Shown here one piece after another: positions 83 to 34,196 of a stretch of DNA of 46,091 bases (position 1 is its first letter; each line of letters begins with the position of its first letter). The stretch spans positions 1 to 46,091 of the forward strand of contig SCQL01000005.1 of the NCBI GenBank assembly GCA_004299235.1, given 5' to 3'. The notes under the pieces were generated by a model. The model worked only from the letters and a program-made list of their open reading frames with translations, had not been told where the DNA came from and ran no database searches. Source of the stretch: a bacterium (GTDB lineage Bacteria > Chloroflexota > Dormibacteria > Dormibacterales > Dormibacteraceae). The position numbers were made by a program, and so were the translations under genes.

Positions 83-149
83 GCCCCTCAAATCGCCCCT
101 TGACATCTATAGGAGGATCGGAGTACACGCTCCCAGCCGAGACGCGCCC

Positions 150-3807: not shown

Positions 3808-3815
3808 CGCCGAGG

Positions 3816-4667: not shown

Positions 4668-4707
4668 GATGTAAACGTTACCGAGAACCTTGACAGTCAG
4701 TCAAGGC
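4668..4707 (-). promoter_or_regulatory. Putative promoter of the SMP-30-like gene
   Basis: Reading the minus strand, TTGACT (4704-4699) is followed after 18 bases by TAACGT (4680-4675), and seven bases later by the GTG start at 4667. The predicted transcript would start at or beside the start codon. The -10 is a weak match. Confidence 0.4.
4688..4706. promoter_or_regulatory. Perfect palindrome in divergent promoter region (candidate operator)
   Basis: CCTTGAC-AGTCA-GTCAAGG is a perfect 7-bp inverted repeat with a five-base spacer, lying in the only gap between two divergent hydrolase genes. Each arm contains the -35 box of one of the two promoters (TTGACA to the right, TTGACT to the left). 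A regulator bound here would control both genes. The nearby LacI-type protein (7110-8162) is one candidate. The symmetry may also simply reflect two overlapping -35 boxes. Confidence 0.5.
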
Positions 4708-4719
4708 GACCCCTAAGAT
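4690..4719 (+). promoter_or_regulatory. Putative promoter of the phosphotriesterase-like operon
   Basis: A consensus TTGACA (4690-4695) is followed after 18 bases by TAAGAT (4714-4719). The -10 overlaps the ATG at 4718, which argues that translation begins at a later ATG (4730 or 4742). Confidence 0.45.
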
Positions 4720-4729
4720 GCACGGCATC

Positions 4730-5650
4730 ATGACCGCGGTGATGACCGTTCTCGGCCCCATCGATTCCGGGGACCTGGGGTTCACGCTCACCCACGAGCA
4801 CTTCTTCATCAACCTGCTTCGCGAGTACCGGGGTGAAGGCCTCCTCAACGATCCCGAGCTGGCCAAAGACGAGGTGCTGCGATTCAAGGCGGCGGGTGGC
4901 CGAACCGTCGTCGACTGCACGAGCATCGGGCTGCAGCGCGATCCAGCCGCCCTGCGCCGGCTGGCTCAGGAGACCGGCCTCAACGTGATCATGGGTTGCG
5001 GCCACTACCGGGATCCCTACATCGACCGCGGCTGGCTGGATTCACAGAGCGCCAACAAGGTCGCCGATCTCATTGTTCGCGACATCGACGTCGGCGCCGA
5101 CGGCACCGGGATTCGAGCCGGCATCATCGGCGAGGTCGGTTGCGACAAGCGTTACGTCTCAGCGGCCGAGGAGCGTTCCCTGCGGGCCGCGGCCCGCGCG
5201 CACCTGCAGACCGGGCTGACCATCACGACGCACGCCGCTCGCTGGCCGGTGGGATTGCCTCAGCTGGAGATACTGCGGAGCGAGGGCGTCGATCCCGCTC
5301 GCGTGGTGATCGGCCACTGCGACACGGTGCCGTCATACGAGTACCACGAGGAGGTGGCGCGCCTCGGAGCCTGGGTGCAGTTCGACACGATCCGCGGCGA
5401 GAGCGAGTACGACATCGCCCACCGCGTGCGCATGGTGTTGAACCTGGTGAGCAAGGGCTTCATCGATCGGATCCTGCTTTCGCACGATGTGTGCCTGCGT
5501 TCGATGCTCAGGATCTGTGGTGGCGGGGGTTACGACCTGATCCCCACCGTTTTCCTCCCCCGGCTGCGGGAGGCGGGATTGTCGGCAGAGCAGCTCGCCA
5601 GGATTACCGTCGACAACCCGCGACGAGCATTGACCGGAGAGGAGGATTGA
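4730..5650 (+). CDS. Phosphotriesterase-family metal hydrolase
   Basis: This amidohydrolase-superfamily TIM barrel of about 306 residues belongs to the phosphotriesterase/PHP/lactonase group. Counting from the upstream ATG at 4718, the metal ligands are THEH (His26, His28), the bridging residue Glu139 in GEVG, His172 in THA, His200 in GHCD and Asp257 in LSHD, so the binuclear site is complete. A glutamate replaces the carboxylated lysine of classical phosphotriesterase, as in some PHP-type members. ATG 4730 was chosen because the -10 box overlaps ATG 4718; MTVLGPI at 4742 is also possible. The stop overlaps the next ATG and the neighbouring SMP-30 gene is divergent. Lactone or ester hydrolysis is the likely activity, and organophosphate activity is not implied. 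Confidence 0.85.
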   Translation: MTAVMTVLGPIDSGDLGFTLTHEHFFINLLREYRGEGLLNDPELAKDEVLRFKAAGGRTVVDCTSIGLQRDPAALRRLAQETGLNVIMGCGHYRDPYIDRGWLDSQSANKVADLIVRDIDVGADGTGIRAGIIGEVGCDKRYVSAAEERSLRAAARAHLQTGLTITTHAARWPVGLPQLEILRSEGVDPARVVIGHCDTVPSYEYHEEVARLGAWVQFDTIRGESEYDIAHRVRMVLNLVSKGFIDRILLSHDVCLRSMLRICGGGGYDLIPTVFLPRLREAGLSAEQLARITVDNPRRALTGEED

Positions 5651-8162: not shown

Positions 8163-9864
8163 GATGAGCTCGGGGAGCGACGGCGAGGTGCCGTCGCCCT
8201 ACGAATCGCGCCCCTGGCTGGCGCGGTATCCGAGCTGGGTGCCGCACGGCCTGCGTCCCTCCTCGCCCAGCGCTCTCGACATGTTCGCCGCCAGCCTGCG
8301 CCGGGCTCCCGACGCGCCCGCCATCCATTACCGGGAGCAGTCCGTTTCCTTCAAGGAGCTGGATCGGGCGTCGGCCGCCTTGGGGACGGCTCTGGCCGTC
8401 CGTGGCGTGGCCCGAGGGGACCGGGTCGCGGTCTATCTGCAGAACATCCCCGAATTCGTGCTCAGCGCCCTGGCCGTTTGGAGGCTGGGGGCCGTGCTGG
8501 TACCCCTCAGCCCGATGCTGAAGGAGCGGGAGGTCCGGCACCAGCTGACGGACTCGGGGGCCCGAGCCCTGGTGGCGCTGGACGGCATCTATGAGGAGAA
8601 CGCCCGCCCCGCTCTGGCCGGGACCGACCTGCGGACGGTGATCACGGTCCGCGGTCCGGATGAGGCCTTGGGCTCGAACCCGGGAGGGGCGGCGGGCACC
8701 GGCGGCGAGCCGGCGCCGGAGGATTTCCACCGGCTGCTCGGGGAGTTCGACGGCGCCACCCTGCCGGACCCCGGCCTGCGCCCGGAGGACATCGCCGTCC
8801 TGACCTACACCTCGGGCACCACGGGCCGTCCGAAGGGGGCGATGAACACGCACGGCAACGTCGTCTTCAACGCGGAGTTCTATCGCACCTGGCTCCGGCT
8901 GGGCCCCGGCGACGTCATGCTGGGCGCCGCGCCTCTGTTCCACATCACCGGCCTCGTGGCGCACATGGCGGTGTGCCTGTCGGCCGGCATCCCGCTGGTG
9001 CTCTTCTACCGGTTCGAACCGGGCGAGGCCCTCCGGCTGATCGAGCGCTGGCGCTGCACGGCCACCGTCGCCAGCATCACCGCCTTCCTCGGCATGATGG
9101 CCCGGCCCGAGATCGGCACCCGCGACCTCAGCCGTTTCCGAAAGGTTTACAGCGGGGGAGCGCCGGTCGCGCCGGCGACGGTGCGCCGCTTCCAGGAATT
9201 GACCGGCGCCTACATCCACAACATCTACGGACTGACCGAGACGACGTCGCCCTCGCATGCGATCCCGCTCGGGACGAGCGCCCCGGTCGACCCGGACAGC
9301 GGCGCCCTGTCGGTCGGGGTGCCGATCCCCGACACGGTGGTCAAGGTGGTGGACCCGGAGACCATGGTCGAGGTGCGCCCGGGCGAGATCGGTGAGCTGT
9401 GGACCAAGGGCCCGGGCGTGGTGCCGGGTTACTGGCGGAACCCGGACGCCACCGCCCAGGGATTCACGCAGGGCTATCTCCACACGGGGGACATCGGGAA
9501 GATGGACGCGGACGGCTGGTTCTTCATCATCGACCGGGCCAAGGACATGATCAACGCCTCCGGCTACAAGGTCTGGCCCAGAGAGGTCGAGGACGGCCTG
9601 TACCAGCACCCGGCCGTGAACGAGGCGAGCGTGGTCGGCATTCCGGACCCCTACCGCGGAGAGACGGTCAAGGCCTACGTCTCGCTGAAGCCCGGCCACC
9701 AGGCGACCCCGGAAGAGCTGGTCGATTTCTGCCGCGCGCGGATGGCGGCCTACAAGTACCCGAGGACGGTGGAGATCGTGGATGAGATTCCGAAGAACGC
9801 GAGCGGGAAGTTCCTCCGCCGCGTGCTCCGCGAACGCGACCTCAACCGGAGTCCCGAGGCATGA
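8155..9864 (+). CDS. AMP-forming acyl-CoA synthetase
   Basis: This 569-residue adenylate-forming enzyme activates a carboxylic acid through an acyl-AMP to the CoA thioester. The ATP loop YTSGTTGRPKG is near residues 218-228, YGLTETT near 359-365, HTGDIGKMDADGW further on, and the catalytic lysine in PKNASGKFLRR near 546-556. All core motifs are present. Start GTG 8155 overlaps the LacI stop; ATG 8164 is an alternative three codons in. The following SDR gene overlaps by four bases. It resembles medium/long-chain fatty or aryl acid ligases, but substrate cannot be fixed. Confidence 0.92.
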   Translation: MPEMSSGSDGEVPSPYESRPWLARYPSWVPHGLRPSSPSALDMFAASLRRAPDAPAIHYREQSVSFKELDRASAALGTALAVRGVARGDRVAVYLQNIPEFVLSALAVWRLGAVLVPLSPMLKEREVRHQLTDSGARALVALDGIYEENARPALAGTDLRTVITVRGPDEALGSNPGGAAGTGGEPAPEDFHRLLGEFDGATLPDPGLRPEDIAVLTYTSGTTGRPKGAMNTHGNVVFNAEFYRTWLRLGPGDVMLGAAPLFHITGLVAHMAVCLSAGIPLVLFYRFEPGEALRLIERWRCTATVASITAFLGMMARPEIGTRDLSRFRKVYSGGAPVAPATVRRFQELTGAYIHNIYGLTETTSPSHAIPLGTSAPVDPDSGALSVGVPIPDTVVKVVDPETMVEVRPGEIGELWTKGPGVVPGYWRNPDATAQGFTQGYLHTGDIGKMDADGWFFIIDRAKDMINASGYKVWPREVEDGLYQHPAVNEASVVGIPDPYRGETVKAYVSLKPGHQATPEELVDFCRARMAAYKYPRTVEIVDEIPKNASGKFLRRVLRERDLNRSPEA

Positions 9865-10688
9865 GTCGTGGCGGCCCCGCGCCGGCGGATTCCCGGCGCT
9901 CCTCGGACCCCGACCTCGGCGGCCGCGTGGCGGTCGTCACCGGCGGCGGCCGGGGCCTCGGGAGGACCCTTGCCCGGCGGTACGCCGCGGCCGGCGCCGC
10001 CGTGGTGCTCGCCGGCCGGGGGCGGGAGGCGCTCGAAGAGACGGCCGGGGCGATCCAGTCGGCGGGCGGGCAGGCCGAATGGGTCGTCGCCGACGTGACC
10101 TCGGTCCAGGACGTGGACGCCGTGGTCGCGCGGGCGAAACGGGCCTTCGGGCACCTGGACGTGCTGGTCAACAACGCGGGCATCCCCGGCCCGACGGTGG
10201 AGCTGGAGCGGCTTTCGCTCGAGGAGTGGCAGGAGGTCATGGCGGTCAACCTGACCGGGGTCTTCCTCTGCTGCCGGGCGGCGATCCCGCTCATGCGTGA
10301 GGCGGGGGGAGGACGGATCATCAACATCGGCTCCGTCTCGGGCAAGCGGCCGCTCCCGGGGCGGACCCCCTACGCGGCGTCGAAGCTCGGCCTGATCGGG
10401 CTGACGAGGACGCTCGCCCACGAGGTCGGAAAGCACGGCATCAACGTCAACGCGATCTCGCCGTGGCTGGTGGCCGGCGACCGGCTCGACCTGGTCATCG
10501 GCCGGGCGGCCGCGGCCGCGGGCGTCGACTCGGATTCCGTCCGCGCGGAGTGGACGGCGCTGTCGCCCTTTGGGCGCGGCGTCACGGAGGACGACGTCGC
10601 CAACGTGGCTCTGTTTCTCACCTCCGCCGCGGCGGAGAACATGACGGGTCAGGACATCAACGTGACGGCCGGCGCCGTCATGTACTGA
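9861..10688 (+). CDS. SDR-family NAD(P)-dependent oxidoreductase
   Basis: A classical short-chain dehydrogenase/reductase of 275 residues. It has the nucleotide-binding TGGGRGLG (about 26-33), the structural NNAG (about 104-107), and the catalytic Ser158 with YAASK (Tyr171, Lys175). FabG-like length and motifs suggest oxidation or reduction of a hydroxy- or ketoacyl substrate. It is coupled by ATGA to the acyl-CoA synthetase, which fits action on the CoA ester made by that enzyme. It is the last gene of the first catabolic block; about 235 bases of non-coding DNA follow. Confidence 0.92.
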   Translation: MSRGGPAPADSRRSSDPDLGGRVAVVTGGGRGLGRTLARRYAAAGAAVVLAGRGREALEETAGAIQSAGGQAEWVVADVTSVQDVDAVVARAKRAFGHLDVLVNNAGIPGPTVELERLSLEEWQEVMAVNLTGVFLCCRAAIPLMREAGGGRIINIGSVSGKRPLPGRTPYAASKLGLIGLTRTLAHEVGKHGINVNAISPWLVAGDRLDLVIGRAAAAAGVDSDSVRAEWTALSPFGRGVTEDDVANVALFLTSAAAENMTGQDINVTAGAVMY

Positions 10689-10889: not shown

Positions 10890-10918
10890 TTGACAACGGC
10901 TTCCGCCGCCCTTACAGT
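10890..10918 (+). promoter_or_regulatory. Promoter of the TetR gene, leaderless geometry
   Basis: TTGACA (10890-10895), a 17-base spacer, TACAGT (10913-10918), six bases, then the GTG start at 10925. The predicted +1 falls on the start codon, so the mRNA would be leaderless. Confidence 0.65.
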
Positions 10919-10924: not shown

Positions 10925-11575
10925 GTGCCAATCGATCGATCGATAGGTAACTCGACCAGGTTAAGGAGTGGGGAGCGTGCGGAGATACGGACCCAGCGCC
11001 AGATCTACGGAGCTGCCGTGAAGCTGATGTACGAGCTTGGCTATCACGGCACGTCGACCAGGGCGATCGCGAAGGCCGTGGGAATCGAGAGCTCCTCGAT
11101 CTACTACCACTACCCCAGCAAGCAACACGTGCTGGTCGACATCATGACCCGCAGCATGAGCGACCTGATCGCCGACGTGGAGGCGGCGGTCGCTCTACAT
11201 CACGAACCCGCCGACCAGCTCCGCGCTGCAATCCGGGCACATGTCAGATTCGAATGTCGGGACAGGATGCAGTCGTTCGTCACCGACTCAGAGGTTCGTG
11301 CACTAGAGCCGGCAAACCGCGCCGAAATTCTCAGGCTCCGAGACAGGTACGAGCGAATTTTTCAGCGGATACTCAAGGAAGGCACCGCAGGGGGACAGTT
11401 CGCGGTTCACGACACCCGACTGACAGTGATGGCCTTGATGGCTCTCTGCACTGGAGTGTCCACCTGGTACCAACCCGAAGGTAGGTTGGGGCCGGACGAG
11501 ATCGCCGAGCGGTATATCGCTCTCGCTCTGGACGGCATCACAAGCCGCGAGCCCAGAGCTGCGGAAGTCAAGTGA
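10925..11575 (+). CDS. TetR-family transcriptional regulator
   Basis: This protein of about 216 residues has an N-terminal TetR DNA-binding domain (helix-turn-helix STRAIAKAVGIESSSIYYHYPSK) and a TetR_C ligand domain of the kind seen in KstR2/FadR-like acyl-CoA-responsive members. The start GTG 10925 was chosen because a good promoter ends at 10918; starts further up would lie inside the promoter. The stop overlaps the GTG of the next gene, so the regulator is the first gene of the operon running to 15708 or further. A CoA ester made by the ligase in this operon would be a natural inducer, which is an inference. Confidence 0.9.
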   Translation: MPIDRSIGNSTRLRSGERAEIRTQRQIYGAAVKLMYELGYHGTSTRAIAKAVGIESSSIYYHYPSKQHVLVDIMTRSMSDLIADVEAAVALHHEPADQLRAAIRAHVRFECRDRMQSFVTDSEVRALEPANRAEILRLRDRYERIFQRILKEGTAGGQFAVHDTRLTVMALMALCTGVSTWYQPEGRLGPDEIAERYIALALDGITSREPRAAEVK

Positions 11576-12444
11576 CCACAGAGCACAGGGTGATCGACGC
11601 TCGGGTCCGCCTTCCGCTGGAGAGGTGGCCCGAGCAGTTCCGCAGCCTCCGCGAAGAGTACGTGACCCAGTACGACCGGGTGCTCCACCTCAGCGCCAAT
11701 CGTGAGCGGTCTGTCGACCTCCTGAAGGAAGACATGAGTAACGCCGGCGTCAGCCACGCGATCGTGCACGCAGAGCACGAGATGGGCGATGCGGCCGACG
11801 CGCTCACCGAAGCGGTCGCACAACTGGTGGCGAGCGATCCGGACCGCTTCTCAGGTTTCGGCAGCATTTCGCTCGAGCACTTCCAGATCAAGCGCGCCGT
11901 GCGCCAGGTCCAGAGAATTCACGATCTTGGCCTGATTGGAGTCTGCTTCCAGCCCTCGTTCGCCGGCATGGCGATCGACGACCGGCGGCTCTACCCGGTC
12001 TACCTGCGAGCGATGGAACTGGAGCTGCCGGTGGCGGTCCACACGGGTATCAACTACTCGACCTCGCACCCGATCGTCAATGACCACCCGCTGATGGTCG
12101 ATCAAGTCGCGTGCGATTTTCCGGACCTTACGGTGATCGCGTGCCACGCCGGCTGGCCGTGGGTTCCGGAGATGGTTGCCGTTGCGTGCAAGCATCCCAA
12201 GGTGCTCATGGAGTTCGGCGGGCTGGCGCCCAAGTACGTCGGAGAGACTGGCACCGGTTGGGAAGTGATGCACCGGTTCATGAACAGCGTGCTTCAGAAG
12301 CAGGTTCTGTTCGGGACGGACTGGCCCGTGTTTCCGATGGGGCGCGCAGTTTCGGAGTGGCGAGCCATGGACCTCAAGCCGCAGGTGCTGACCGCGCTGC
12401 TGGGTGGCAATGCCGAGGAACTCTTGATGCGGAGCCGATCATGA
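11572..12444 (+). CDS. Amidohydrolase-2 family protein lacking the N-terminal HxH
   Basis: This 290-residue amidohydrolase_2 (ACMSD-like) TIM barrel is of the kind that catalyses decarboxylation or hydrolysis of small acids. His in VAVHTG (about 156), His in ACHAGWPWV (about 189) and the catalytic Asp in FGTDWP are present. The first-strand metal motif DxHxH is replaced by DARVRLP, so two usual metal ligands are missing. A subgroup with this I-D-x-R-V-R pattern exists to my knowledge, but its chemistry is unclear. The start GTG 11572 overlaps the TetR stop by four bases. The stop overlaps a 31-codon ORF in the same ATGA manner. Confidence 0.85.
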   Translation: MTTEHRVIDARVRLPLERWPEQFRSLREEYVTQYDRVLHLSANRERSVDLLKEDMSNAGVSHAIVHAEHEMGDAADALTEAVAQLVASDPDRFSGFGSISLEHFQIKRAVRQVQRIHDLGLIGVCFQPSFAGMAIDDRRLYPVYLRAMELELPVAVHTGINYSTSHPIVNDHPLMVDQVACDFPDLTVIACHAGWPWVPEMVAVACKHPKVLMEFGGLAPKYVGETGTGWEVMHRFMNSVLQKQVLFGTDWPVFPMGRAVSEWRAMDLKPQVLTALLGGNAEELLMRSRS

Positions 12445-12536
12445 CTCTTCGCAGCTCCATCCTGCCCCGGTCGGTCTGGTCACGGCTCGATCTCCAGGCA
12501 TCCGCATTGCTGATCGAAGAGGGAGGACAGGCATGA
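12441..12536 (+). CDS. 31-residue ORF joined by ATGA overlaps at both ends
   Basis: A short frame starts with ATG 12441 inside the amidohydrolase stop and ends with TGA 12534-12536 inside the start of the lactonase gene. It therefore fills the gap exactly, with a four-base overlap on each side. The product begins MTLRSSILPRSVWSRL and ends LIEEGGQA, with no membrane segment or known motif. The codons for its last residues also form the GGAGG ribosome site (12522-12526) of the next gene. It may be a translation-coupling leader, a real small protein, or the tail of a decayed gene. I do not recognise it. Confidence 0.45.
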   Translation: MTLRSSILPRSVWSRLDLQASALLIEEGGQA

Positions 12537-13303
12537 AGCTCTACGCGATACATGGGGGTGGGGAGCGCGCCGACATGGCGGCGTTCAACCCCTTCGACGA
12601 GAAGGTCGGGACGAAAGTCGACATCCCTTTCTTCTTCTATGTGATCGAACATCCAAAGGGCCTGGTCCTGTTCGACACGGGCGGCCACCCTGACCTCTTC
12701 GAGAACCCGCGCGCCCGGCTCGGAGACGCCGCTGACGCGTGGGAGGTGACCGGCGTTGCCGGCGACGATGTCGTCTCGAAACTGAACCAGATGAACCTCA
12801 AACCGAAGGACATCGAGCGCGTCGTCCAGTCACATCTCCATTACGACCACGCGGGCGGCCTGGAGTTCTTCAAACACGCGACCATCTATGTCCAGAAGTC
12901 GGAGCTGGAATTCGCATACTCGCCTCCGGTCTACCAGAGGGACCTCTACATACGCGCCGACTTCGACCACGAGCTGGAGTGGATGCAGGTCGATGGCGAT
13001 CACGACATCTTCGGCGATGGCCGTTTGGTGCTATTCCCGACTCCGGGACACACTCGCGGACACCAGTCGATGCTCGTCAAGCTCGACACCCAGAACATCA
13101 TCTTGGTCGCCGATGCCGCGTACCTGCCCAAGAACATTGAGCAGCGGCTGCTGACGGCGGTGGTGTGGAGTCCCGACGCGATGGTGGCGAGCTGGGACAG
13201 GATCGATGAGATCCGGGCCCGGGAAAACGCCTCGCTCATCTTCACTCACGACCTCGAATGGCCGGACAAGACCAGGCTTGCGCCGAAGGAGTGGTACCAA
13301 TAG
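12533..13303 (+). CDS. MBL-fold hydrolase, N-acyl homoserine lactonase-like
   Basis: This 256-residue metallo-beta-lactamase-fold enzyme carries the binuclear zinc motif HLHYDH (His101, His103, Asp105, His106), a third-ligand GHTRGH near residue 171, the bridging Asp in VADAAYL (about 193) and His in FTHDLEW (about 238). Fold and motifs match the AttM/AiiA lactonase group, which opens homoserine lactone or other gamma-lactone rings. Embedded between an amidohydrolase and a CoA ligase, it more likely opens a catabolic lactone than serves quorum quenching; AttM itself is known in gamma-butyrolactone use. It is cytoplasmic with no signal peptide. Confidence 0.87.
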   Translation: MKLYAIHGGGERADMAAFNPFDEKVGTKVDIPFFFYVIEHPKGLVLFDTGGHPDLFENPRARLGDAADAWEVTGVAGDDVVSKLNQMNLKPKDIERVVQSHLHYDHAGGLEFFKHATIYVQKSELEFAYSPPVYQRDLYIRADFDHELEWMQVDGDHDIFGDGRLVLFPTPGHTRGHQSMLVKLDTQNIILVADAAYLPKNIEQRLLTAVVWSPDAMVASWDRIDEIRARENASLIFTHDLEWPDKTRLAPKEWYQ

Positions 13304-14931
13304 CCGCTCCGATTTCGCATCAAGGCGCGGGCGCACCTTGGAGCGGTGTGGGCGACTCGCCCAACATTGTTCAGTTGGCCCGCGCGGGGTCCGCGCTGAA
13401 TCCCGAAGCGCCGGCGATCATCTTCGAGGACGGCCTCGTAGTGAGTCGCTCCGAGCTAATGGAACGCGTTGCATCGTTCGCGAGCTACCTGAAGGAGCGT
13501 CTGGCTCCCGGCGACCGGGTGGCGATCATCCTCGAGAACCGGGCTGAATTCATGATCGCCTGGCTGGCGGTAGCGGCTTGCCGAGCGACCTTGGTCTCGA
13601 TCAATACAGGCGCTCAGGCGCACGACGGCGGCCACATCTTGCATGACTCGGCCGCCAAGATGGTCATCACGGGTGATGCCGGGGAGTCACTTGTTGCGCA
13701 GCTGAAGCCCGACCTTCCCCAGCTCCGCGAGGTCATAAGGGTCGGTGGCAGCGAACCCGACGGGCTGTCGAGATTCGCGGGCGCGCACAGCTTTAATTGG
13801 TCCGAGTTAGGCATACAGCCGGACGACGCGACCAACGTCTACTACACCTCCGGAAGCACTGGGCTGCCGAAAGCCTGCATCCTCGACCACACCTACTGGC
13901 TGCGTTTCGTCGACGTGTTCCAAAGGCTCTATGGCATGGGCCCGGAAGACAGGCTCCTGTCGTCGCTGCAGTTCTCCTACGGCGACCCGCCCTGGATGAT
14001 GCTGACGTCACTCATCTCCGGCGGCACCTTGGTGGCGATGCGCAGGTTCAGCGTCAGCCGCTACTGGCAAGTCGTACGCCGGCACGGCGTCACGATCATC
14101 TTCGGAATCGCATCGATTCCGAGCCTGCTTCTGAAGCAACCGCCATCGACTGAGGACAGAAACCACAAGGTGAAGTTCGCCCTCCAGCTCGGCATGCCGG
14201 CGCACCTGCACCGAAGCGTGGAGGAGCGCTGGGGATTTCGTTGGGTCGAAGGTTATGGACTCACAGAAACCGGGCTGGTGGTCTCGATGCCGTTGGCGCT
14301 GGCGGCGGAGATGACCGGTTCAGGTTCCATTGGAGTGCCTTGCCCGGAGGCGGAAGTCTCGGTGATAGACGACGCCGGCAAACCAGTCGCTCCTGGCGAC
14401 ATCGGAGAGATCTTGATCAAAGCCCCAGGGCTCATGAAGGGCTATCTCAATCGTCCCGACGCCACAGCGGCAACCATCCAAGACGGCTGGCTTTTCACCG
14501 GCGACCTCGGCCACTTCGACGATCGTGGCTTTCTCTACTTCAACGGCAGGAAGAAGGACATCGTCCGCCGCGGCGGCGAAAACGTGGCGGCGGCTGAAGT
14601 CGAGCAGGTGCTGCGTTCGCATCCCCTTGTGCTCGAGGCCGCCGTCGTGCCCGTTCCGGATGACGTTCGAGGCGAAGAGGTCAAGGCTTTCATCCTACTG
14701 GTCGAAGGGGCAACGCCCGACCAATTTCCGCCTCCAAAAGTGGTCGAGTACTGCGCCCAGCGTTTGGCTCGCTACAAGGTGCCACGGTATATCGAGTACC
14801 GCCGAACGGATTTTCCTCGGACACCCTCGATGAGAGTCAAGAAACATGCCCTCCTTGAGGAGCGGCGTGACCAGATCGCTGGCGCATGGGATCGCGAGCA
14901 CGAAGCCACGACCAACGCCACGCCAGGTTAG
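13258..14931 (+). CDS. AMP-forming acyl-CoA ligase, CaiC-like
   Basis: This 557-residue adenylate-forming ligase has the ATP loop YTSGSTGLPKA near residues 200-210, GYGLTETG further on, FTGDLGHFDDRG, and the hinge GRKKDIVRRGGENV. The C-terminal lysine segment reads TPSMRVKKHAL. Its style is that of crotonobetaine/carnitine or fatty-acid CoA ligases. The frame opens at ATG 13258, overlapping the lactonase gene by 46 bases. GTG 13291 is an equally good start with shorter overlap, directly after AAGGA. It would activate the hydroxy acid released by the lactonase, then pass it to the enoyl-CoA hydratase encoded next. That order is an inference from the operon. Confidence 0.9.
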   Translation: MAGQDQACAEGVVPIAAPISHQGAGAPWSGVGDSPNIVQLARAGSALNPEAPAIIFEDGLVVSRSELMERVASFASYLKERLAPGDRVAIILENRAEFMIAWLAVAACRATLVSINTGAQAHDGGHILHDSAAKMVITGDAGESLVAQLKPDLPQLREVIRVGGSEPDGLSRFAGAHSFNWSELGIQPDDATNVYYTSGSTGLPKACILDHTYWLRFVDVFQRLYGMGPEDRLLSSLQFSYGDPPWMMLTSLISGGTLVAMRRFSVSRYWQVVRRHGVTIIFGIASIPSLLLKQPPSTEDRNHKVKFALQLGMPAHLHRSVEERWGFRWVEGYGLTETGLVVSMPLALAAEMTGSGSIGVPCPEAEVSVIDDAGKPVAPGDIGEILIKAPGLMKGYLNRPDATAATIQDGWLFTGDLGHFDDRGFLYFNGRKKDIVRRGGENVAAAEVEQVLRSHPLVLEAAVVPVPDDVRGEEVKAFILLVEGATPDQFPPPKVVEYCAQRLARYKVPRYIEYRRTDFPRTPSMRVKKHALLEERRDQIAGAWDREHEATTNATPG

Positions 14932-14940
14932 GAGGCGATT

Positions 14941-15708
14941 TTGCAGGTCAAGTACGAGGTCAAAGGATCGGTTGCTCAGATCACCCTGGATCGGCCTGAG
15001 GCAATGAACGCGATGAATCCCGAGATGTATCAACTGATCGATGAGAGCCTGCTCAAACTGGACGGCGATCCAGCCGTCCGCGTGGGCATCATCACGGGCG
15101 CGGGCGACCAAGCGTTCACCGCCGGTGCCGACCTTAAGCGAATGCATACGGAAGAAGAACGAGAGCAGCCTTGGCAGCCATGGCGGCCGCACCGCTGGGA
15201 GTTCGGTCTCTCGATCTCGAAACCATTAATCGCAGCCGTCAATGGATACGCGTTGGCGGGTGGGCTGGAGCTGGCGTTGATGTGCGACATCAGGCTCGCC
15301 TCCGCCACTGCGCAGTTCGGCACGCCGGAGGTGAAGTGGAACATTCTCCACGGTTATGGAGCGCTGCGGCTACCCCAGATGATGTCACTCTCGGACGCCT
15401 TTCTCATGCTGCTCACGGGGCAATTCATCTCGGCGGACGAGGCGCTACGGATGGGACTCGTCAGCCGAGTGGTGCCACCGTTGGAGTTGATTCCAGCCGC
15501 CTACTCGATCGCTGACGCAATCAGCCAAAACGGACCACTGGCGGTTCGCATGACCAAGGAGCTGGTCTATCGAGGCTTGGACATGTCGCTCGAGGATGCC
15601 CTTCGCATCTATTCGGCCTATTACCAAATCATCGGCCAGACGGCGGACCAGCGCGAAGGTACGACTGCCTTCGCTCAAAAGCGCAAGCCGAAGTTCACGG
15701 ACTCATAA
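14941..15708 (+). CDS. Enoyl-CoA hydratase/isomerase family protein
   Basis: This 255-residue crotonase-fold protein acts on acyl-CoA. The oxyanion-hole segments AGADLKRM (about residues 61-68) and NGYALAGGLELALMCD (about 101-116) are intact. The start is TTG 14941 with AGGAGG (14932-14937) a few bases upstream; no ATG lies nearby in frame. The terminal KRKPKF motif is typical. Its gene follows the CoA ligase after nine bases, so the two share a transcript. Hydration of an enoyl-CoA is the default activity, but crotonase-fold enzymes also catalyse isomerisation, ring opening or decarboxylation. Confidence 0.92.
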   Translation: MQVKYEVKGSVAQITLDRPEAMNAMNPEMYQLIDESLLKLDGDPAVRVGIITGAGDQAFTAGADLKRMHTEEEREQPWQPWRPHRWEFGLSISKPLIAAVNGYALAGGLELALMCDIRLASATAQFGTPEVKWNILHGYGALRLPQMMSLSDAFLMLLTGQFISADEALRMGLVSRVVPPLELIPAAYSIADAISQNGPLAVRMTKELVYRGLDMSLEDALRIYSAYYQIIGQTADQREGTTAFAQKRKPKFTDS

Positions 15709-15770
15709 GCGGAGAGCGACCACAACAACATCGATTGCCGGCCCAGGTCTATTGAAAGGAGGAAGTTCGG

Positions 15771-17195
15771 ATGGATGATGCGGCTGCCAAGGTAACTACG
15801 CTCAAGGCTCGATCCGTCGGGCTGCCGGAGGCGGTCGCCATGTCCGCGGCCTTGATCGGGCCCGCGGTTGGAGTGACCGCGGGCAATGTGTTCATCGCTG
15901 GCTTTTCGGGCATTGCGTCGCCGCTAGCATTTGTGTTCGGCACTCTGGTCTGCATCGCGATCGCGAGCGTCATCGGCGACTACGCAAGGAAGCTGCCGAG
16001 CGCCGGCTCGTTCTACACGTACCTGACGAACACGTTCGGCCCCAAGACGGGGTTCGTAACAGGGGTGCTCCTTTTCGGCGCTTACGTGCTGCTGCTCCCA
16101 TTTCAAGCGGCATTCTTTGGTTCCTTCGTCCAAGGAGCGCTTGCGAACATCAACATCAACCTGCCCTGGCAGCTATTCTCGATAGCGCTTCTGTTACTGA
16201 GCACCGCACTCGTGGTGATCGGCGTGCGTCCTTCGCTCGGGACCGTACTGGTTGGCTTGACCTTCGAAACTGTCGTCTTTCTGGTGCTCGCTCTGGTGAT
16301 CGTCGCCCACGGAGGAGCAACAGGGAATTCCCTACAGCCCTTCAACCCTTCTCACGCGCCGTCGTCGTCGGGTTTGCTGATTGCGGTCGTCTACACAATC
16401 TTTGCGTTCGTGGGGTTTGAGTCGGCGACGACCCTGGGTGAGGAGGTAAAGCACCCGACGAGGCTGATTCCGATCGCAGTATTCGCAACCACCGTCATCA
16501 TCGGATTCTTTTATATATTCGTCACCTATGCCGAGGTCATCGGTTTCGGCGTATCCGCCGACGGATTGCACCAGCTTCAGAGCAACCAGAGTCCATTCAC
16601 CGACCTGGCCACGAAGTACGTGGGAGGCTGGTACAGCGCGCTGGTGACCCTGGCAACCATCTCCAGCTTTTCGGCGCTGAACATCGTCACCGTCATCGCG
16701 GGAAGTCGCATGGTGTACGCCATGGGCCGCGATCGAATGTTGCCCGCCGTATTCGGAAAAGTGAACGTGCGCCACTCACCGAGTAATGCCGCATATGCTG
16801 TCGGCGCCTGGGGCATTGGCGTGACCGTAGTCATGGGATCAATGTTCGGTCCCGTGAACCTCGCATCGTGGTTCTCCTATTTCGCCACGCTTTTCTTCAT
16901 CGGCGCCTACATCCTTCTCTGTGTGGGTGTGATCAGGTTTTACTTTCAAAAGCACCGGAGTGAGTTCAACTGGTTTCGGCACATCCTGGTGCCGCTGGTC
17001 GCTCTTACTGGAATGGCGTGGGTTACCTATGGCAACGTGGTGCCCGTGCCAGCGGCGCCCCTCAGCTACTTCATCCCCCTGACGATTGCTGTGATCATCG
17101 CGTCGGCCATCGCCGCTGCATTTCTGGAACGACGAAACCCGCAGATTGTGCGGACGGCGGGCGAGATCTTCGCCGCTGCAACTGAAGAACCGTAA
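15771..17195 (+). CDS. APC-superfamily permease
   Basis: This 474-residue integral membrane protein has about twelve hydrophobic segments, starting with PEAVAMSAALIGPAVGVTAGNVF and ending near ASAIAAAFLER. It contains the APC-type FVGFESATTLGEE motif in the sixth to seventh segment region. It should carry an amino acid, amine or similar compound across the inner membrane. A good ribosome site AAAGGAGG (15754-15761) precedes ATG 15771. A 62-base gap separates it from the hydratase gene, with no clear terminator, so it is probably in the same operon. It is the likely importer for the substrate of this block. Confidence 0.9.
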   Translation: MDDAAAKVTTLKARSVGLPEAVAMSAALIGPAVGVTAGNVFIAGFSGIASPLAFVFGTLVCIAIASVIGDYARKLPSAGSFYTYLTNTFGPKTGFVTGVLLFGAYVLLLPFQAAFFGSFVQGALANININLPWQLFSIALLLLSTALVVIGVRPSLGTVLVGLTFETVVFLVLALVIVAHGGATGNSLQPFNPSHAPSSSGLLIAVVYTIFAFVGFESATTLGEEVKHPTRLIPIAVFATTVIIGFFYIFVTYAEVIGFGVSADGLHQLQSNQSPFTDLATKYVGGWYSALVTLATISSFSALNIVTVIAGSRMVYAMGRDRMLPAVFGKVNVRHSPSNAAYAVGAWGIGVTVVMGSMFGPVNLASWFSYFATLFFIGAYILLCVGVIRFYFQKHRSEFNWFRHILVPLVALTGMAWVTYGNVVPVPAAPLSYFIPLTIAVIIASAIAAAFLERRNPQIVRTAGEIFAAATEEP

Positions 17196-17234
17196 GCAGA
17201 CGTCTAGACTCGGACCGAACGAGAGAGCACCTGG

Positions 17235-18569
17235 ATGATCGGCCCATCCAACATGGGCGATCTCCAGGTGCGCTGGGTCAAGAAACCGGAGCTCGAGTCA
17301 GCCGAGCACCGGCAGCTGATCGAGGCCACCGTGAGCGAAATCATCGCTGCAGTGCAGGAGCGAGGCGATGAAGGCCTGCGCCATCACTCCAAGAGGCTCG
17401 ACCACTGGAATCCGCCGTCGTTTCGTGTGACACGCGCGCAGATAGACCAGGCGTATGAATCAGTTGGGCCGGACTGCGTGGCCCTCATTCAACTCGTACG
17501 CGACCAGGTGGTGAGCTTTGCGAACGCTCAACTGCAAGGTCTTCAACCGGTCGAGATAGAACCGCATCCCGGCATAACAATGGGACATCGTCTCGTGCCG
17601 CTCACGTCAGTAGGCTGCTACGTGCCAGGCGGCGCTTACCCTCTGGTCGCTGCCGTACACATGCAGGTCGCCACGGCCAAAGTTGCTGGGGTAGGGCGGA
17701 TCCTTGCATGTGCGCCCCCGCGGGACGAAAACGGTATATGGCCGGCGACGCTCGTCGCTATGGATGTGTGCGGCGCCGACGAGATCTATTGCATGGGTGG
17801 CGTGCAAGCACTCGCGGCGTATGCGTTTGGGACTTCCGAAATCAAACCGGTGGACATGATCACCGGCCCTGGCAACGCCTATGTCGCAGAAGCCAAGCGA
17901 TTGCTGTTTGGGCACGTCGGCATCGATCTCCTCGCGGGAGTGACCGAGATCTTGATCATCGCCGACGAGACTGCCGACCCAGAGATCGTGGCCGCGGATC
18001 TTCTTGCACAAGCCGAACATGGTCCAACCTCCCCCGCCCACCTCGTCACCGATTCGGCGGTTCTTGCCGACGCGGTATCGGAGGTCGTTGAATCACAGTT
18101 GAAGGTCTTGCCGACGCGGGAGATCGCCGAGCAGGCATGGCGGCGCCGCGGCGCCATCGCGCTTGTTCGGGGGCCGGAAGAGATGGCGATCTATTCAGAC
18201 ACTGCTGCTCCGGAGCATGTGGCGGTTCTTTGTCGCGACACCGAATGGTTCCACGGGCGCCTGAAGAACTATGGATCGATCTTCCTTGGCGAAGGGGCCA
18301 ATGTCGTCTACTCGGACAAGGCGATCGGAACCAACCACACGCTGCCAACCGGCCGCGCCGCGCGATACACGGGCGGCCTATGGGTGGGCAAGTTCATAAA
18401 GGTGGTTACGTACCAACGCCTCACGAGCGCAGGTAGCAATTTCATTGCACCCTACGCACGGCGTGTCGCGGAGATGGAAGGGATGCTCGCCCACGCCGCG
18501 GCGTGCGCGATGCGCGAACGAAAGTACAAAGACGTGACGCTCGATCAAAGACCTGGCGGGGTGGAGTGA
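17235..18569 (+). CDS. Histidinol-dehydrogenase-family enzyme, HpsN-like
   Basis: This 444-residue NAD-dependent enzyme has the HisD fold. Zinc ligands Gln and His appear in AQAEHGPTS, the catalytic Glu-His pair in APEHVAV, and the Asp ligand in YSDKAIGTNHTLPTG. Motifs SVGCYVPGGAYPL and ARYTGGLWVGKF resemble sulfopropanediol dehydrogenase HpsN more than biosynthetic HisD, whose usual motif is IGLYVPGG. With no other his genes nearby and a catabolic operon upstream, oxidation of a primary alcohol to an acid is more likely than histidine synthesis. The 39-base gap upstream contains TAGACT and GAGAG. The gene end overlaps the convergent lipoprotein gene by 25 bases. Confidence 0.87.
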   Translation: MIGPSNMGDLQVRWVKKPELESAEHRQLIEATVSEIIAAVQERGDEGLRHHSKRLDHWNPPSFRVTRAQIDQAYESVGPDCVALIQLVRDQVVSFANAQLQGLQPVEIEPHPGITMGHRLVPLTSVGCYVPGGAYPLVAAVHMQVATAKVAGVGRILACAPPRDENGIWPATLVAMDVCGADEIYCMGGVQALAAYAFGTSEIKPVDMITGPGNAYVAEAKRLLFGHVGIDLLAGVTEILIIADETADPEIVAADLLAQAEHGPTSPAHLVTDSAVLADAVSEVVESQLKVLPTREIAEQAWRRRGAIALVRGPEEMAIYSDTAAPEHVAVLCRDTEWFHGRLKNYGSIFLGEGANVVYSDKAIGTNHTLPTGRAARYTGGLWVGKFIKVVTYQRLTSAGSNFIAPYARRVAEMEGMLAHAAACAMRERKYKDVTLDQRPGGVE

Positions 18570-19961: not shown

Positions 19962-21161
19962 ATGTTGGGGGAAGGGGGCACAGACCTTCAGAAGCTGGCG
20001 TTGGCCGTGCGCGAGTTCCAGGCCCGCGACGAGCGCCGCGTCGACGCCAAGGGCCTGCGCGCCCTGATCGACGCCCTGGAGGGCGAGTTCGCCGCCGAGG
20101 CGCGCTGTGTCCAGCAGTCGGGCGAGCATCTGGCCGGCGGCAGCGTCTCCGCCGTCGCCTGGCTGAGCCGGACCTGCGCCATGTCCGCCACCTCGGCCGC
20201 CGACCGCCTCTGCGCCGGCGAGCAGCTGGAGGCACTGCCTCAGGTGGCCCAGGCCCTGGGCGCGGGGGAGATCGGCTACCAGTCGGCGGCTTTGCTCTGC
20301 CACCTGCGCCAGCAGCTGGGCGACAAGCGCGAGCTCTTCGACGAGACAGAGATGCTGGAGCTGGCGCGCCGCCATTCGGTCGCCAGCCTGCGCTTTCTGT
20401 GCCGCTACGCCCGCCATGTCGCCGACCCCGACGGCTTTTTCAACCAGGCCGAGGAGGACTACAGCCGCCGCCGCCTCCACCTCAGCCAGATGGCCGACGG
20501 CATGCACGCCATCGAGGGCGTGCTCGACCCCGAAGGCGGGGCGGCGCTGCGCACCGCGCTGGACGCCCTGGCCAAGCGGCTGGGGCCGGAGGACGAGCGC
20601 AGCTACCGCCAGCGGCTGGCCGACGCCCTGGTCGAGTGCGTGCGCCACGCCATGGACGAAGGCCGGCTGCCCAAGCGCAACGGGGTCCGGCCGCACCTCA
20701 CCCTGACGACCACGCTGGAGGGATTGAAGAACCAGCTCGGCGCGGCGGCCTCCGACCTCGAGCTCTCGCTGCCGATCTCCAGCCGGACGGTGGAGCGCCT
20801 GGGGTGCGACGCCGCCATCTCCCGCGTCCTGCTCGCCGGCTCGGTGGTGATCGACGTCGGCCGGGCGACGCGGGTGGTCTCGGCGCCAACGCGGCGGGCG
20901 CTGCGGATCCGGGATCGCGGCTGCCGCTGGCCGGGCTGCGACCGCCAGGTCAACTGGTCGACGCCGCATCACATCGTCGCCTGGGCCAAAGATGGTCCGA
21001 CCGACCTGTCCAACCTCGTGCTTTTGTGCTTCGCCCACCACCGCCTCGTCCATGAAGGCGGGTGGTCGGTGCTCAAGGCCGGCCGGGAGTTCCGCTTCCT
21101 GCCCCCCGAGCGGGTGGTGATGCGGCGGGCGCGGGGACCGGGGGTGCGCTGGGCGGCCTAG
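19962..21161 (+). CDS. DUF222 domain and HNH endonuclease-domain protein
   Basis: This 399-residue protein has an N-terminal helical DUF222 (13E12-repeat) region covering about residues 10-300 and a C-terminal HNH nuclease domain. The HNH core is visible as CRWPGCDRQ, then STPHHIVAWAKDGPTDLSNLVLLC, then AHHRLVHEGGW, so both cysteine pairs and the catalytic histidines are intact. Such proteins occur in many copies in Actinobacteria and relatives, and their role (mobile or selfish nuclease, DNA repair) is not settled. It is not part of a recognisable operon: it is convergent with the amino acid dehydrogenase and has its own promoter. Confidence 0.9.
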   Translation: MLGEGGTDLQKLALAVREFQARDERRVDAKGLRALIDALEGEFAAEARCVQQSGEHLAGGSVSAVAWLSRTCAMSATSAADRLCAGEQLEALPQVAQALGAGEIGYQSAALLCHLRQQLGDKRELFDETEMLELARRHSVASLRFLCRYARHVADPDGFFNQAEEDYSRRRLHLSQMADGMHAIEGVLDPEGGAALRTALDALAKRLGPEDERSYRQRLADALVECVRHAMDEGRLPKRNGVRPHLTLTTTLEGLKNQLGAAASDLELSLPISSRTVERLGCDAAISRVLLAGSVVIDVGRATRVVSAPTRRALRIRDRGCRWPGCDRQVNWSTPHHIVAWAKDGPTDLSNLVLLCFAHHRLVHEGGWSVLKAGREFRFLPPERVVMRRARGPGVRWAA

Positions 21162-23078: not shown

Positions 23079-23882
23079 TCAGCGGGCCTGGACCTTGGCG
23101 ACGCCTCCGCCGCCCGTGAGTCGCGCGGCGATGACCACCGGGATGACGGTGACGAGGATCACGAAGGAGACCACGACGTTCACCTCGGGCAGCCGCTGCC
23201 CGAGGCGGATCGCGCCGAAGATCCACAGCGGCAGCGTGTTCTGGGCCCCGGCGGTGAAGGTGGTGACGATGACCTCGTCAAAAGAGAGCGCGAACGCGAG
23301 CATGCCGCCGGCGACGACAGCCGTCGAGATCAGGGGCAGGGTGATGTCCCGGAAGGTCTGAAAGCCGTTGGCGCCCAGGTCCATGGCGGCTTCGATCAGC
23401 GAGCCCTGCGTCCGCCGCAGCCGCGCCAGGACGTTGTTGTAGACCACCACGATGCAGAACGTGGTGTGGCCGACCACGATGGTCCAGATCGACAGGGTCA
23501 CGCCGTTGAAGCTGAAGAACGCGTTGAGCGCCATGCCGGTGATGATCCCGGGCAGCGCGAGCGGCAGGATGAACAGAAGGCTCACGACGTCGCGACCGAA
23601 GAACGTCATGCGGTGGATGGCGAATGCCGCGCATGAGCCGAGCACCAGCGCCAGCACCGTCGCGGTCAGGCCGGCCTTGAGCGAAAGCAGCAGCGCCTGA
23701 CGCACCTCGCGGTCGTTCCAAGTTGAGCTGAACCACTTCAGCGTGAGCCCGGGAATGGGCCAGCTCTCGATGTTCGAGGTGTTGAACGCATAGAAGAAGA
23801 TCAGAAGGATGGGGAAGAACAGGAACAGCAGGAGGAGCACGGCCCACAGCCGCAGGGCGAGCTTGGTCCAGATACCTTCCAT
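23079..23882 (-). CDS. ABC transporter permease, PotC-like
   Basis: This 267-residue inner-membrane permease of a spermidine/putrescine-type ABC importer has six predicted membrane segments, the first being LWAVLLLLFLFFPILLIFFYAF. The cytoplasmic EAA loop reads EAAMDLGANGFQTFRDITLP (about residues 170-189). Start ATG 23882 overlaps the stop of the PotB-like gene by four bases (ATGA). A longer reading of the frame runs through that gene and is not real. It is the last gene of an operon that begins at the transaminase gene at 29859. Confidence 0.93.
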   Translation of the reverse strand: MEGIWTKLALRLWAVLLLLFLFFPILLIFFYAFNTSNIESWPIPGLTLKWFSSTWNDREVRQALLLSLKAGLTATVLALVLGSCAAFAIHRMTFFGRDVVSLLFILPLALPGIITGMALNAFFSFNGVTLSIWTIVVGHTTFCIVVVYNNVLARLRRTQGSLIEAAMDLGANGFQTFRDITLPLISTAVVAGGMLAFALSFDEVIVTTFTAGAQNTLPLWIFGAIRLGQRLPEVNVVVSFVILVTVIPVVIAARLTGGGGVAKVQAR

Positions 23883-24793
23883 CACAGAGCCTCGAAGGCG
23901 CCCAGGCGCTTGGCCCCGAGCAGGTACACGGCCATGATCGCGACCGGGATCATCGCCAGCGCCGCGGCGAAGGGCACGTTGTTGGCGATGCCGACGCTGC
24001 TGTAGACGACGTTGCCGATGAAGCTCGAGCCCGCGCCGCCGACCAGGATCGGGGTGATGAAGTCGCCCAGCGTGAGCGAGAAGGTGAAGATCGAGCCCGC
24101 CGCGATGCCGGGAAGCGCCAGGGGCAGCACCACGTCGCGCACCGCTCGCCAGCGCCGGGCGCCGAGGTCGGCGGCGGCTTCCAGAAGCGACTCGGGAACC
24201 CTCTCCATGGCCGCGTAGACCGGGATGATCATGAACGGGAGCCAGATGTAGGAGAAGACGACCCACATCGCGACGTTCGTGTAACCGATGTTGGCCGGCG
24301 GCAGGCCGATCGACTGCAGGCTCCAGTTGAGGACGCCGTCGTGGTTGAGGATCAGGATCCAGGCGTAAACACGCGCGAGGTAGCTGGCCCACAGGGGCAG
24401 CAGCACCGCGGCGAAGAGCAGCGTCTGGGTGCGGCGTGAGGCGACGCGTGCCATGTAGTAGGCGAAGGGGAAGGCGAGCAGCGCGTCGGTGACCGTGACC
24501 AGGACCGCCATGGTCACGGTGCGGCCGATGATGCGGCGATACGCGGGCTCGGTGAAGATGGTCCTGAAGTTGTCGAGGTTCCAGACCTGGACGATCTGCG
24601 TGGTGAACGTGTCGATCGTCCAGAACGCGGTCACCAGCAGCAGGACCAGCGCCGCGAGGTAGACGAGCACGAACCAGGCGAGCGGCGGTGTCAGGAGCAG
24701 CCACGCGCGAAGCCACGGCACGCGCCAGAGCAGAGCCTGGATCCGGACGGCCCCGCGCATCTTGCGGGGCCGCCCGGCTGCGACCAGCGCCAT
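23882..24793 (-). CDS. ABC transporter permease, PotB-like
   Basis: This 303-residue partner permease has about six membrane segments beginning with LLLTPPLAWFVLVYLAALVL. The EAA loop reads EAAADLGARRWRAVRDVVLP near residues 218-237. The arginine/lysine-rich N-terminus (RPRKMR) is cytoplasmic. It lies 12 bases after the substrate-binding protein gene and is coupled to the PotC-like gene. Together they would form the membrane channel for polyamines or related amines. Confidence 0.93.
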   Translation of the reverse strand: MALVAAGRPRKMRGAVRIQALLWRVPWLRAWLLLTPPLAWFVLVYLAALVLLLVTAFWTIDTFTTQIVQVWNLDNFRTIFTEPAYRRIIGRTVTMAVLVTVTDALLAFPFAYYMARVASRRTQTLLFAAVLLPLWASYLARVYAWILILNHDGVLNWSLQSIGLPPANIGYTNVAMWVVFSYIWLPFMIIPVYAAMERVPESLLEAAADLGARRWRAVRDVVLPLALPGIAAGSIFTFSLTLGDFITPILVGGAGSSFIGNVVYSSVGIANNVPFAAALAMIPVAIMAVYLLGAKRLGAFEAL

Positions 24794-24805
24794 CTCAGCG
24801 CGAGG

Positions 24806-26014
24806 TCATGCGGTGATCGAGGTCCACGCGGTCTGCCACTGCGCGTACGGGATGCAGTCGGTGCTGCCGTCGTCGCAGGTCGCGATTGGCGTCTTCCAGA
24901 ACTTGATGCTCTGGAAGTACGAACCGGGCGCGTCGGCGTGGTACTGGGCGCACGAGCCGGCCTGGAGCGCCTCCATCTCGGCGCAGGCCTTGGTGTTGAC
25001 GGGCGTCTCGCCGAACGAGATCGCCTGCTGGGCCTGAACCTTGGGCGTGCTCACCCACTTGGTCCACAGGTACGCGCAGTTGGGGTGCGGCGCGTTGGTG
25101 GCCAGCATCCAGGTGTCGCCCCATCCCGTCGCCCCCTCGCTGGGAATGGTGTCGGCGACCTGCACCTTGCCGTCCGCGACCAGGGTGTTGGTCTGGTACG
25201 GCCAGGCGGCGCCCACCATCGCGTCGCCGTTCTCGAAGAGCGAGATCTCGTCTGAAGCGAGGGCCCAGTACTTCTTGACCAGCGGTCGCTGCTGCTTGAG
25301 CAGGGCGACCGCGGCGTCGAACTGCTTCTGGGTCAGCTCGTACGGGTCCTTGATGCCGAGGCTGGGCTGGGTCTTCGAGAGATAGAGCGCCGCGTCCGCG
25401 ATCTGGATCGGGTTGTCGGGCACGGTCACCAGGCCCTTGTTGGCCGGGTCGTAGATGACGTTCCAGCTGGTGGGCGCGTTGGGGAACTTCTTCTTGTTGT
25501 ACAGCAGCGTGTTCGGACCCCACTGCAGGGAGATGCCGTAGTGGACGCCGCCGATGGTGTTGTAGGGCGGGTTCTGGAAGTACGGCTGGAAGTTCGCGAA
25601 GTCGGGAATGAGGGCCGGGTTCATCGGCCTCACGTCACCGCCGTAGATCAGGCGGAGGTCGGCGTCACCCGAGGCGGAGACCATGTCCCACTGGCCGCCA
25701 CCACCGTTGGCCATCAAAGTCACCATCTCGTCGGACGAGCCGGCGTACTTGGCGTTGACGACGCAGCCGGTGTCCTTCTGGAACTGGTCCTTCCAGGTCG
25801 GGTCGACATAGCCCTCCCACGCGATGAGATTGAGCGCGCCCTCACCCGCACCGATCGCGCTCAGAGGCTTCATGTCCGCGGTCGGCGGCGGCTTGAGGGT
25901 GGATCCGCCCCCGCCGCTCGTCGCGCCGCACGCGCTCACCGCGAGGGCCGCGGCGGCGGCCAACGTCCCCAGCCGGACCCAACCGGCCGGGCTACCTGCT
26001 GATGAACTCATCAC
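24806..26014 (-). CDS. ABC transporter substrate-binding lipoprotein, PotD-like
   Basis: This 402-residue extracytoplasmic solute-binding protein has a lipoprotein signal peptide with hydrophobic core LGTLAAAAALAV and lipobox VSAC (Cys at about residue 29), then a GGGG-rich linker. The mature part shows the PotD/PotF style LNLIAWEGYVDPTWKDQF near its start and family segments such as GISLQWGPNTLLYN. It delivers a polyamine-like ligand to the permeases. ATG 26014 follows the PotA-like gene by three bases, so the two are translationally close. Confidence 0.92.
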   Translation of the reverse strand: MMSSSAGSPAGWVRLGTLAAAAALAVSACGATSGGGGSTLKPPPTADMKPLSAIGAGEGALNLIAWEGYVDPTWKDQFQKDTGCVVNAKYAGSSDEMVTLMANGGGGQWDMVSASGDADLRLIYGGDVRPMNPALIPDFANFQPYFQNPPYNTIGGVHYGISLQWGPNTLLYNKKKFPNAPTSWNVIYDPANKGLVTVPDNPIQIADAALYLSKTQPSLGIKDPYELTQKQFDAAVALLKQQRPLVKKYWALASDEISLFENGDAMVGAAWPYQTNTLVADGKVQVADTIPSEGATGWGDTWMLATNAPHPNCAYLWTKWVSTPKVQAQQAISFGETPVNTKACAEMEALQAGSCAQYHADAPGSYFQSIKFWKTPIATCDDGSTDCIPYAQWQTAWTSITA

Positions 26015-26017
26015 TTC

Positions 26018-28530: not shown

Positions 28531-28545
28531 GCAGTCCTCCTTCAG

Positions 28546-29859: not shown

Positions 29860-29882
29860 CTGATCAAATCTCCGCCCACCGC

Positions 29883-29900: not shown

Positions 29901-29916
29901 AAGCGTAGGTTCGGCA

Positions 29917-29945: not shown

Positions 29946-29954
29946 GTGCCGCCT

Positions 29955-34188: not shown

Positions 34189-34196
34189 GTGGTTCC

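Follow-up and report, generated by a model that had tools for sequence, protein, structure and literature searches.

The blcABC/attKLM genes form a gamma-butyrolactone operon in which an AttM-type lactonase acts first and the hydroxy acid that it frees is then oxidised. The phd system of Corynebacterium glutamicum is grouped with the cou, hpe and pip systems. In the cou pathway of Rhodococcus jostii RHA1 the last step is carried out, unusually, by an amidohydrolase, CouO, and yields an acid (PMC4737184). Its homologue HpeF, which belongs to the hpe genes for acetovanillone, acts after a CoA ligase alone (PMC9618137), while the pip genes pipUVWX, like the cou pathway, shorten a side chain with a CoA ligase, a hydratase and a dehydrogenase and then an amidohydrolase-superfamily or similar enzyme (PMC12753220). 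Enzymes of the HisD/HpsN kind perform a four-electron oxidation of an alcohol to an acid, and HpsN proteins carry the motif GRY(A/S)H, whose last histidine (His126) contacts the sulfonate, whereas HisD has GSAPL (PMC11382572). Here we analyse a block of seven genes at positions 10,925 to 18,569 of contig SCQL01000005.1 (assembly GCA_004299235.1), from a bacterium of the Dormibacteraceae (Chloroflexota), and compare it with these systems. The window, that is, the whole stretch of DNA analysed, is the complete contig (C5; 46,091 bp) of a 2.87 Mb genome that comprises 100 contigs and is 96.8% complete.

Seven intact + strand open reading frames (ORFs) were confirmed in the block and assigned to families by Pfam and NCBIfam. 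These are the families that an earlier, sequence-only reading had named; its title put the lactonase before the amidohydrolase, while in fact the amidohydrolase comes first. The genes, with the SDR (short-chain dehydrogenase/reductase) gene upstream and the candidate control signals, are the following:

9861..10688, + strand: SDR, a member of the high-GC upstream cluster, 236 bp before tetR
10890..10918, + strand: promoter-like site TTGACA-17-TACAGT, 10/12 consensus matches
10925..11575, + strand: TetR-family regulator (tetR; TetR_N and TetR_C_24), GTG start
10928..10947, no strand assigned: 20-bp palindrome CCAATCGATCGATCGATAGG, candidate TetR operator, 9/10 complementary
11572..12444, + strand: Amidohydro_2 enzyme of the LigW/LigJ/LigY/ACMSD fold group (AH2), from Pfam, a motif check and the predicted structure
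12533..13303, + strand: metallo-beta-lactamase-fold lactonase of the AttM/AiiA type (LAC; Lactamase_B, AttM and AiiA being the best family models)
13258..14931, + strand: AMP-forming acyl-CoA ligase (LIG; AMP-binding)
14941..15708, + strand: enoyl-CoA hydratase (ECH; ECH_1), with both catalytic glutamates, Glu110 and Glu130
15771..17195, + strand: APC-superfamily permease (AA_permease_2)
17235..18569, + strand: HisD-like NAD-dependent dehydrogenase of the catabolic group (HIS; Histidinol_dh), with a complete Zn and catalytic set

The order is thus TetR, AH2, LAC, LIG, ECH, permease and HIS, with intergenic spacings of -4, 88, -46, 9, 62 and 39 bp, of which the -46 holds for the longest LIG start; LIG may begin later, at 13291 or 13348, and its overlap with LAC would then be shorter or gone. 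A sequence scan found no forward terminator-like site within the seven genes, and the next gene 3' of HIS is convergent and overlaps it by 25 bp. From this layout the block reads as one operon, for which co-transcription is predicted. The promoter-like site ends 6 nt 5' of the tetR GTG, so that a leaderless mRNA is possible. Since two such sites were observed in the region against 1.4 expected by chance, position is the main argument for the one at 10890..10918. The same applies to the palindrome CCAATCGATCGATCGATAGG: the window contains 9 of its kind against 4.7 expected, so that position alone supports it as operator, and its status as a proven operator was rejected because such palindromes are too frequent by chance. 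The best family model for tetR is a FadR-type fatty-acid regulator, with a score far under the cut-off.

The reading that we favour, tentatively and with a probability of about 0.42, is that of one catabolic operon under TetR control, whose substrate, a lactone or a cyclic ester resembling one, would be opened, oxidised at the alcohol, converted to a CoA ester and cleaved. Upon the directly observed genes, catalytic residues, operon layout and linkage of AH2 to CoA-activating and hydratase genes, a scheme can be drawn in which the sequence of the steps, the kind of substrate and what each enzyme catalyses are proposed. The APC permease would import the compound and LAC would open the ring to give a hydroxy acid, whose primary alcohol HIS would oxidise to the acid in one NAD-dependent four-electron reaction. 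LIG would then form the CoA thioester and ECH would add water to a 2-enoyl-CoA. An SDR encoded outside the block, for which 9861-10688 is the candidate, would oxidise the 3-hydroxy group, and AH2 would cleave a C-C bond of the resulting beta-ketoacyl-CoA, as CouO and HpeF do.

The strongest new result is the prediction, drawn from gene linkage, that AH2 acts on CoA thioesters or on an adjacent step. In 24 of 37 amidohydrolase-family loci, the one in the window among them, a gene for an AMP-ligase, enoyl-CoA hydratase, CaiB-type CoA-transferase or ADP-forming ligase lies within 3.5 kb, compared with a background of 0.062 for positions drawn at random from this genome; since some of the genomes are related, the loci are not independent and a binomial P is a guide only. 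One further locus was left uncounted, its only candidate, at a distance of 2.6 kb, being a 3-hydroxyacyl-CoA dehydrogenase fusion. The three CoA-activating families found near these loci are mutually unrelated. Linkage is alike in loci with the strand-1 histidines (11/16) and in those without them (13/21), which makes the CoA link a trait of the wider family and not of its metal-poor members alone. In three genomes that belong to a single genus (L054, L056 and L057), amidohydrolases without HxH are the direct neighbours of CaiB-type CoA-transferases.

AH2 itself is metal-poor, as the sequence-only reading had correctly recognised: the strand-1 HxH is replaced by R11-V-R13 (in I-D-A-R-V-R-L), with His157, His192 and Asp250 retained, and its Roseobacter relatives show metal-site losses beyond those of AH2. 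The AlphaFold model (mean pLDDT 88.5) matches BB4693 first, followed by LigW, LigJ, LigY, ACMSD and other C-C lyases, hydratases and hydrolases. BB4693 (PDB 3irs/3k4w), an uncharacterised protein likewise devoid of HxH, is the closest solved relative, at about 29% identity. To CouO (WP_011597356.1) and HpeF the likeness is one of fold and gene context, all being encoded with a CoA ligase and AH2 and CouO also with an enoyl-CoA hydratase.

HIS keeps the Zn ligands Q259, H262, D361 and H420, the catalytic Glu-His pair E327 and H328, and also H368. Its identity is 44-45% to the solved HpsN/R-DHPS (2,3-dihydroxypropane-1-sulfonate) dehydrogenase, compared with 36% to the HisD that the genome also encodes (at G000:C24). 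In the tree, read without row L016 (a wrong-frame ORF), HIS falls in a separate group with HpsN, with support of 99/100, away from the biosynthetic HisD. That grouping, Lys362 in place of a Tyr after the metal Asp, and the separate HisD led us to reject a biosynthetic histidinol dehydrogenase as its identity. Within the HpsN-containing group, HIS pairs with a 64% relative from G003 (motif GHYPL), apart from both HpsN proteins; residues 133-137 read GAYPL, where 8v35 has GRYAH and 8wwe GRYSH, and the other members of its tree group have G(R/K)YP(M/L) or GRLPM. The earlier label 'HpsN-like' therefore holds for overall similarity and fails for the diagnostic motif. Judged on tree and motif, HIS is a member of an uncharacterised group of catabolic HisD-like enzymes marked by G-x-Y-P-(L/M). 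With the fold family and the Zn and catalytic residues shared with HpsN, the four-electron conversion of an alcohol to an acid with two NAD is the expected chemistry. The G003 relative adjoins a ring-opening amidohydrolase of the AtzD/TrzD type and a molybdopterin dehydrogenase, a neighbourhood that hints at N-heterocycle catabolism there. Two different HisD-like paralogues were also seen flanking a cluster that combines a sugar-type ABC transporter with genes of the SnoaL-like and C-N hydrolase kinds (L027 and L028, at G003:C35 and G016:C40), and a Deinococcus plasmid (L080) carries a similar cluster.

The AiiA-type metal and active site of LAC is complete, comprising HLHYDH at 101-106 (H101, H103, D105, H106), H173, D194, Y197 and H239, and a ring-opening role is likely on these residues. 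Its scores lie below the NCBIfam equivalog cut-offs for AttM (178 vs 390), AiiA (134 vs 375) and 4-pyridoxolactonase (121 vs 325), and quorum quenching is not implied. A vitamin B6 (4-pyridoxolactone) route was discarded on the last of these scores and on a block without B6 ring enzymes. A 36% relative of LAC in G111 adjoins an iron alcohol dehydrogenase, forming a lactone-then-oxidise pair. Like blcABC/attKLM, the block would couple an AttM-type lactonase to hydroxy-acid oxidation; the difference is that HIS would do the work of both the alcohol and the aldehyde dehydrogenase, with CoA steps to follow. A comparable arrangement is found for BxdA of the maize benzoxazinoid cluster, an enzyme annotated as N-acyl homoserine lactone (AHL) lactonase that, by description, heads a catabolic cluster and opens 6-methoxybenzoxazolinone (MBOA), another cyclic ester; in the available part of that source, a ligase/HisD-like set is not described for BxdA (PMC11297187).

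LIG contains the nucleotide-binding motif YYTSGSTGLPK, and at the usual A10 lysine position it has Arg526, an arginine shared by its relatives in G279 and Tsukamurella. Pot-type transporters, amidases or gamma-glutamyl-amine genes adjoin relatives of LIG, and the AH2-ECH pair in G005 lies in surroundings of betaine type (Rieske oxygenase, DAO, M24). Together with the amino-acid-type permease, these neighbours are circumstantial indications of an amine or nitrogen-containing substrate. A Tsukamurella plasmid (L092, 6974-9427) encodes a fusion of a CoA ligase, 40% identical to LIG, with an enoyl-CoA hydratase domain; genes for an APC permease and a glutamine-synthetase-like protein lie nearby.

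The seven genes were not found together in 110 genomes of the class, in 300-400 genomes of the phylum per query, or in plasmids, whereas parts of the LIG-ECH-AH2 core recur. The AH2-LIG pair appears in Roseobacter plasmids (LIG 39%, AH2 34%), the AH2-ECH pair in three genomes from this phylum (G005, G023 and G376; ECH 52-57%, AH2 40-63%), and the LIG-ECH pair in G279, with the fused form in Tsukamurella. LIG has no strong match in the 109 other class genomes and one (57%, G279) among about 300 of the phylum; LAC is rare, a genome-contig scan with it returning a single weak match. The relatives of HIS, LAC and LIG stand separately from one another. A gene-neighbourhood search had been proposed in the sequence-only reading, with scattering in relatives counting against its interpretation; scattering is largely the case for the set of seven and not for the core pairs. 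Since their relatives lack the core and the full set occurs in no other genome searched, LAC, the permease and HIS look, from these comparisons, recruited onto a core of known kind. On a Mesorhizobium ciceri plasmid (L114, 10594-17066), a sugar-acid-type cluster combines a HisD-like gene with genes for another kind of amidohydrolase and for a member of the AHL lactonase family, the three kinds of function being grouped there independently. It was rejected as a relative of the block, its amidohydrolase giving no match to AH2 and its lactonase a short weak one, and is at most a parallel.

Several of these observations weigh against a single lactone operon. The seven genes stand together nowhere else among the genomes searched, and no linkage to the core was found for relatives of LAC, the permease and HIS, except for the APC permease beside the LIG relative on the Tsukamurella plasmid. 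LIG has an arginine in place of the usual adenylation lysine, and the loss of HxH could mean that AH2 is no hydrolase at all. The block also lacks a 3-hydroxyacyl-CoA dehydrogenase, the nearest candidate being the SDR at 9861-10688, which perhaps supplies that step. For this reason the 'complete' uptake-to-CoA route of the sequence-only reading is too strong a term, while its operon-like unit, lactone step and CoA route stand.

Among the alternatives, the one to be reckoned with first, although unlikely, is that the block is a chance mosaic, independent catabolic genes having been gathered side by side, partly by horizontal transfer, without forming one pathway. The uniqueness of the set to this genome, nearest relatives lying in different lineages for different genes (G003, G005/G023 and G279) and the local drop in GC all fit such a history, whereas the tight same-strand spacing behind a single candidate promoter/operator and the recurrence of the ligase-hydratase-amidohydrolase linkage elsewhere do not. 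Concerning GC, the block has 0.61, compared with 0.70 upstream and 0.68 downstream, and 11 of 133 sampled genome windows are as low or lower (the minimum being 0.55). A horizontal origin is possible on this weak evidence; a clear-cut island was rejected, the drop being sharp locally and merely in the lowest ~8% genome-wide. Transfer from afar is not supported, as the best relatives found for AH2, ECH and HIS are in the same family.

Somewhat less probable than a mosaic is a cou/phd/pip-type shortening of an aromatic or unsaturated side chain, with a plant-derived unsaturated acid or amide as substrate and the lactone step secondary. The LIG-ECH-AH2 core, set against the cou and pip schemes, does give the block a resemblance to the core of a side-chain pathway: cou, hpe and pip share with it the CoA ligase and the amidohydrolase-superfamily enzyme that completes the cleavage of the side chain, cou and pip the enoyl-CoA hydratase too, and in a genome of the same family (L053) the genes for ligase, SDR, hydratase and amidohydrolase are clustered. 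Against this, the operon contains no dehydrogenase of the SDR type, it has TetR instead of the MarR of cou, AH2 lacks the metal pair, and the additional LAC, HIS and APC permease include two enzymes, LAC and HIS, without a role in those pathways. Catabolism of AHL or homoserine lactone is a little more doubtful again. LAC would open the ring, LIG would activate the fatty acid for beta-oxidation, HIS would convert homoserine to aspartate and the permease would import the amino lactone, a scheme consistent with AHL lactonases as the best models for LAC, with the oxidation of an amino alcohol to an amino acid by the HisD family, with a permease of an amino-acid family and with the FadR-type model for tetR. 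LAC, however, falls far under the AttM and AiiA cut-offs, the block has no amide hydrolase with an intact site, and enzymes annotated as AHL lactonases can use other cyclic esters, as BxdA does with MBOA (PMC11297187); a literature search turned up no description of an AHL route that uses such a set of genes.

Oxidation of a sulfonate (DHPS) through an HpsN-type enzyme, a substrate class that the sequence-only reading had entertained, is very improbable. Its basis is the higher identity of HIS to HpsN than to the genome's own HisD, but GAYPL replaces the sulfonate-contacting motif (PMC11382572) and the Lys contact is common to the entire catabolic HisD-like group. Moreover, the genome, at 96.8% completeness, gave no match to the SuyB/UxaA family (PF04295), with CuyA outside the search, and none above cut-off to Xsc (TIGR03457), so that desulfonation genes of these two kinds were not found. 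The sulfonate route was rejected on these grounds.

For the lactone operon, all parts are of known kinds and the combination of seven is new among the genomes searched; in agreement with the sequence-only reading, literature searches found no described pathway with a matching gene set. It is a much bolder proposal, and an unlikely one, that the block encodes an undescribed pathway, in which, once the lactone is open, one HIS-type four-electron enzyme would take the place of separate dehydrogenases for alcohol and aldehyde, and AH2, without its metal pair, would act as a C-C hydrolase or lyase on acyl-CoA thioesters, within a branch linked to three unrelated CoA-activating kinds.

The surroundings of the block are also rich in catabolic genes. 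Genes for molybdopterin dehydrogenase, SMP-30, phosphotriesterase-family, CoA-ligase and SDR proteins occur upstream; at 3-5650, molybdopterin dehydrogenase genes accompany SMP-30/gluconolactonase and phosphotriesterase-family genes, the last two being possible further lactonases near the block. A probable catabolic cluster for polyamines or gamma-aminobutyrate (GABA) lies downstream (23882-35720), with aminobutyraldehyde dehydrogenase, GABA transaminase, an ABC transporter of the YdcS/Pot type and a further APC permease, which is of the urea-carboxylase type. Within that interval, a kinase-like protein (30816-31709) scores 307 bits against the cut-off of 357 of the GntI guanitoxin-pathway kinase model and is probably a related small-molecule phosphotransferase. 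The window further contains a DUF222-HNH protein (19962-21161), of a family known mainly from actinobacteria, and, at 44505-45229, a tRNA-Ala followed by an integrase-like transposase fragment close to the contig end.

If the block is indeed an operon for a lactone or lactone-like ester, it would add a lactone-to-CoA route to a poorly cultured lineage. It would also provide a testable function for the HisD-like group with G-x-Y-P-(L/M), whose members are usually annotated as histidinol dehydrogenase, and another for Amidohydro_2 proteins without the metal pair, including the structural-genomics structure 3irs.

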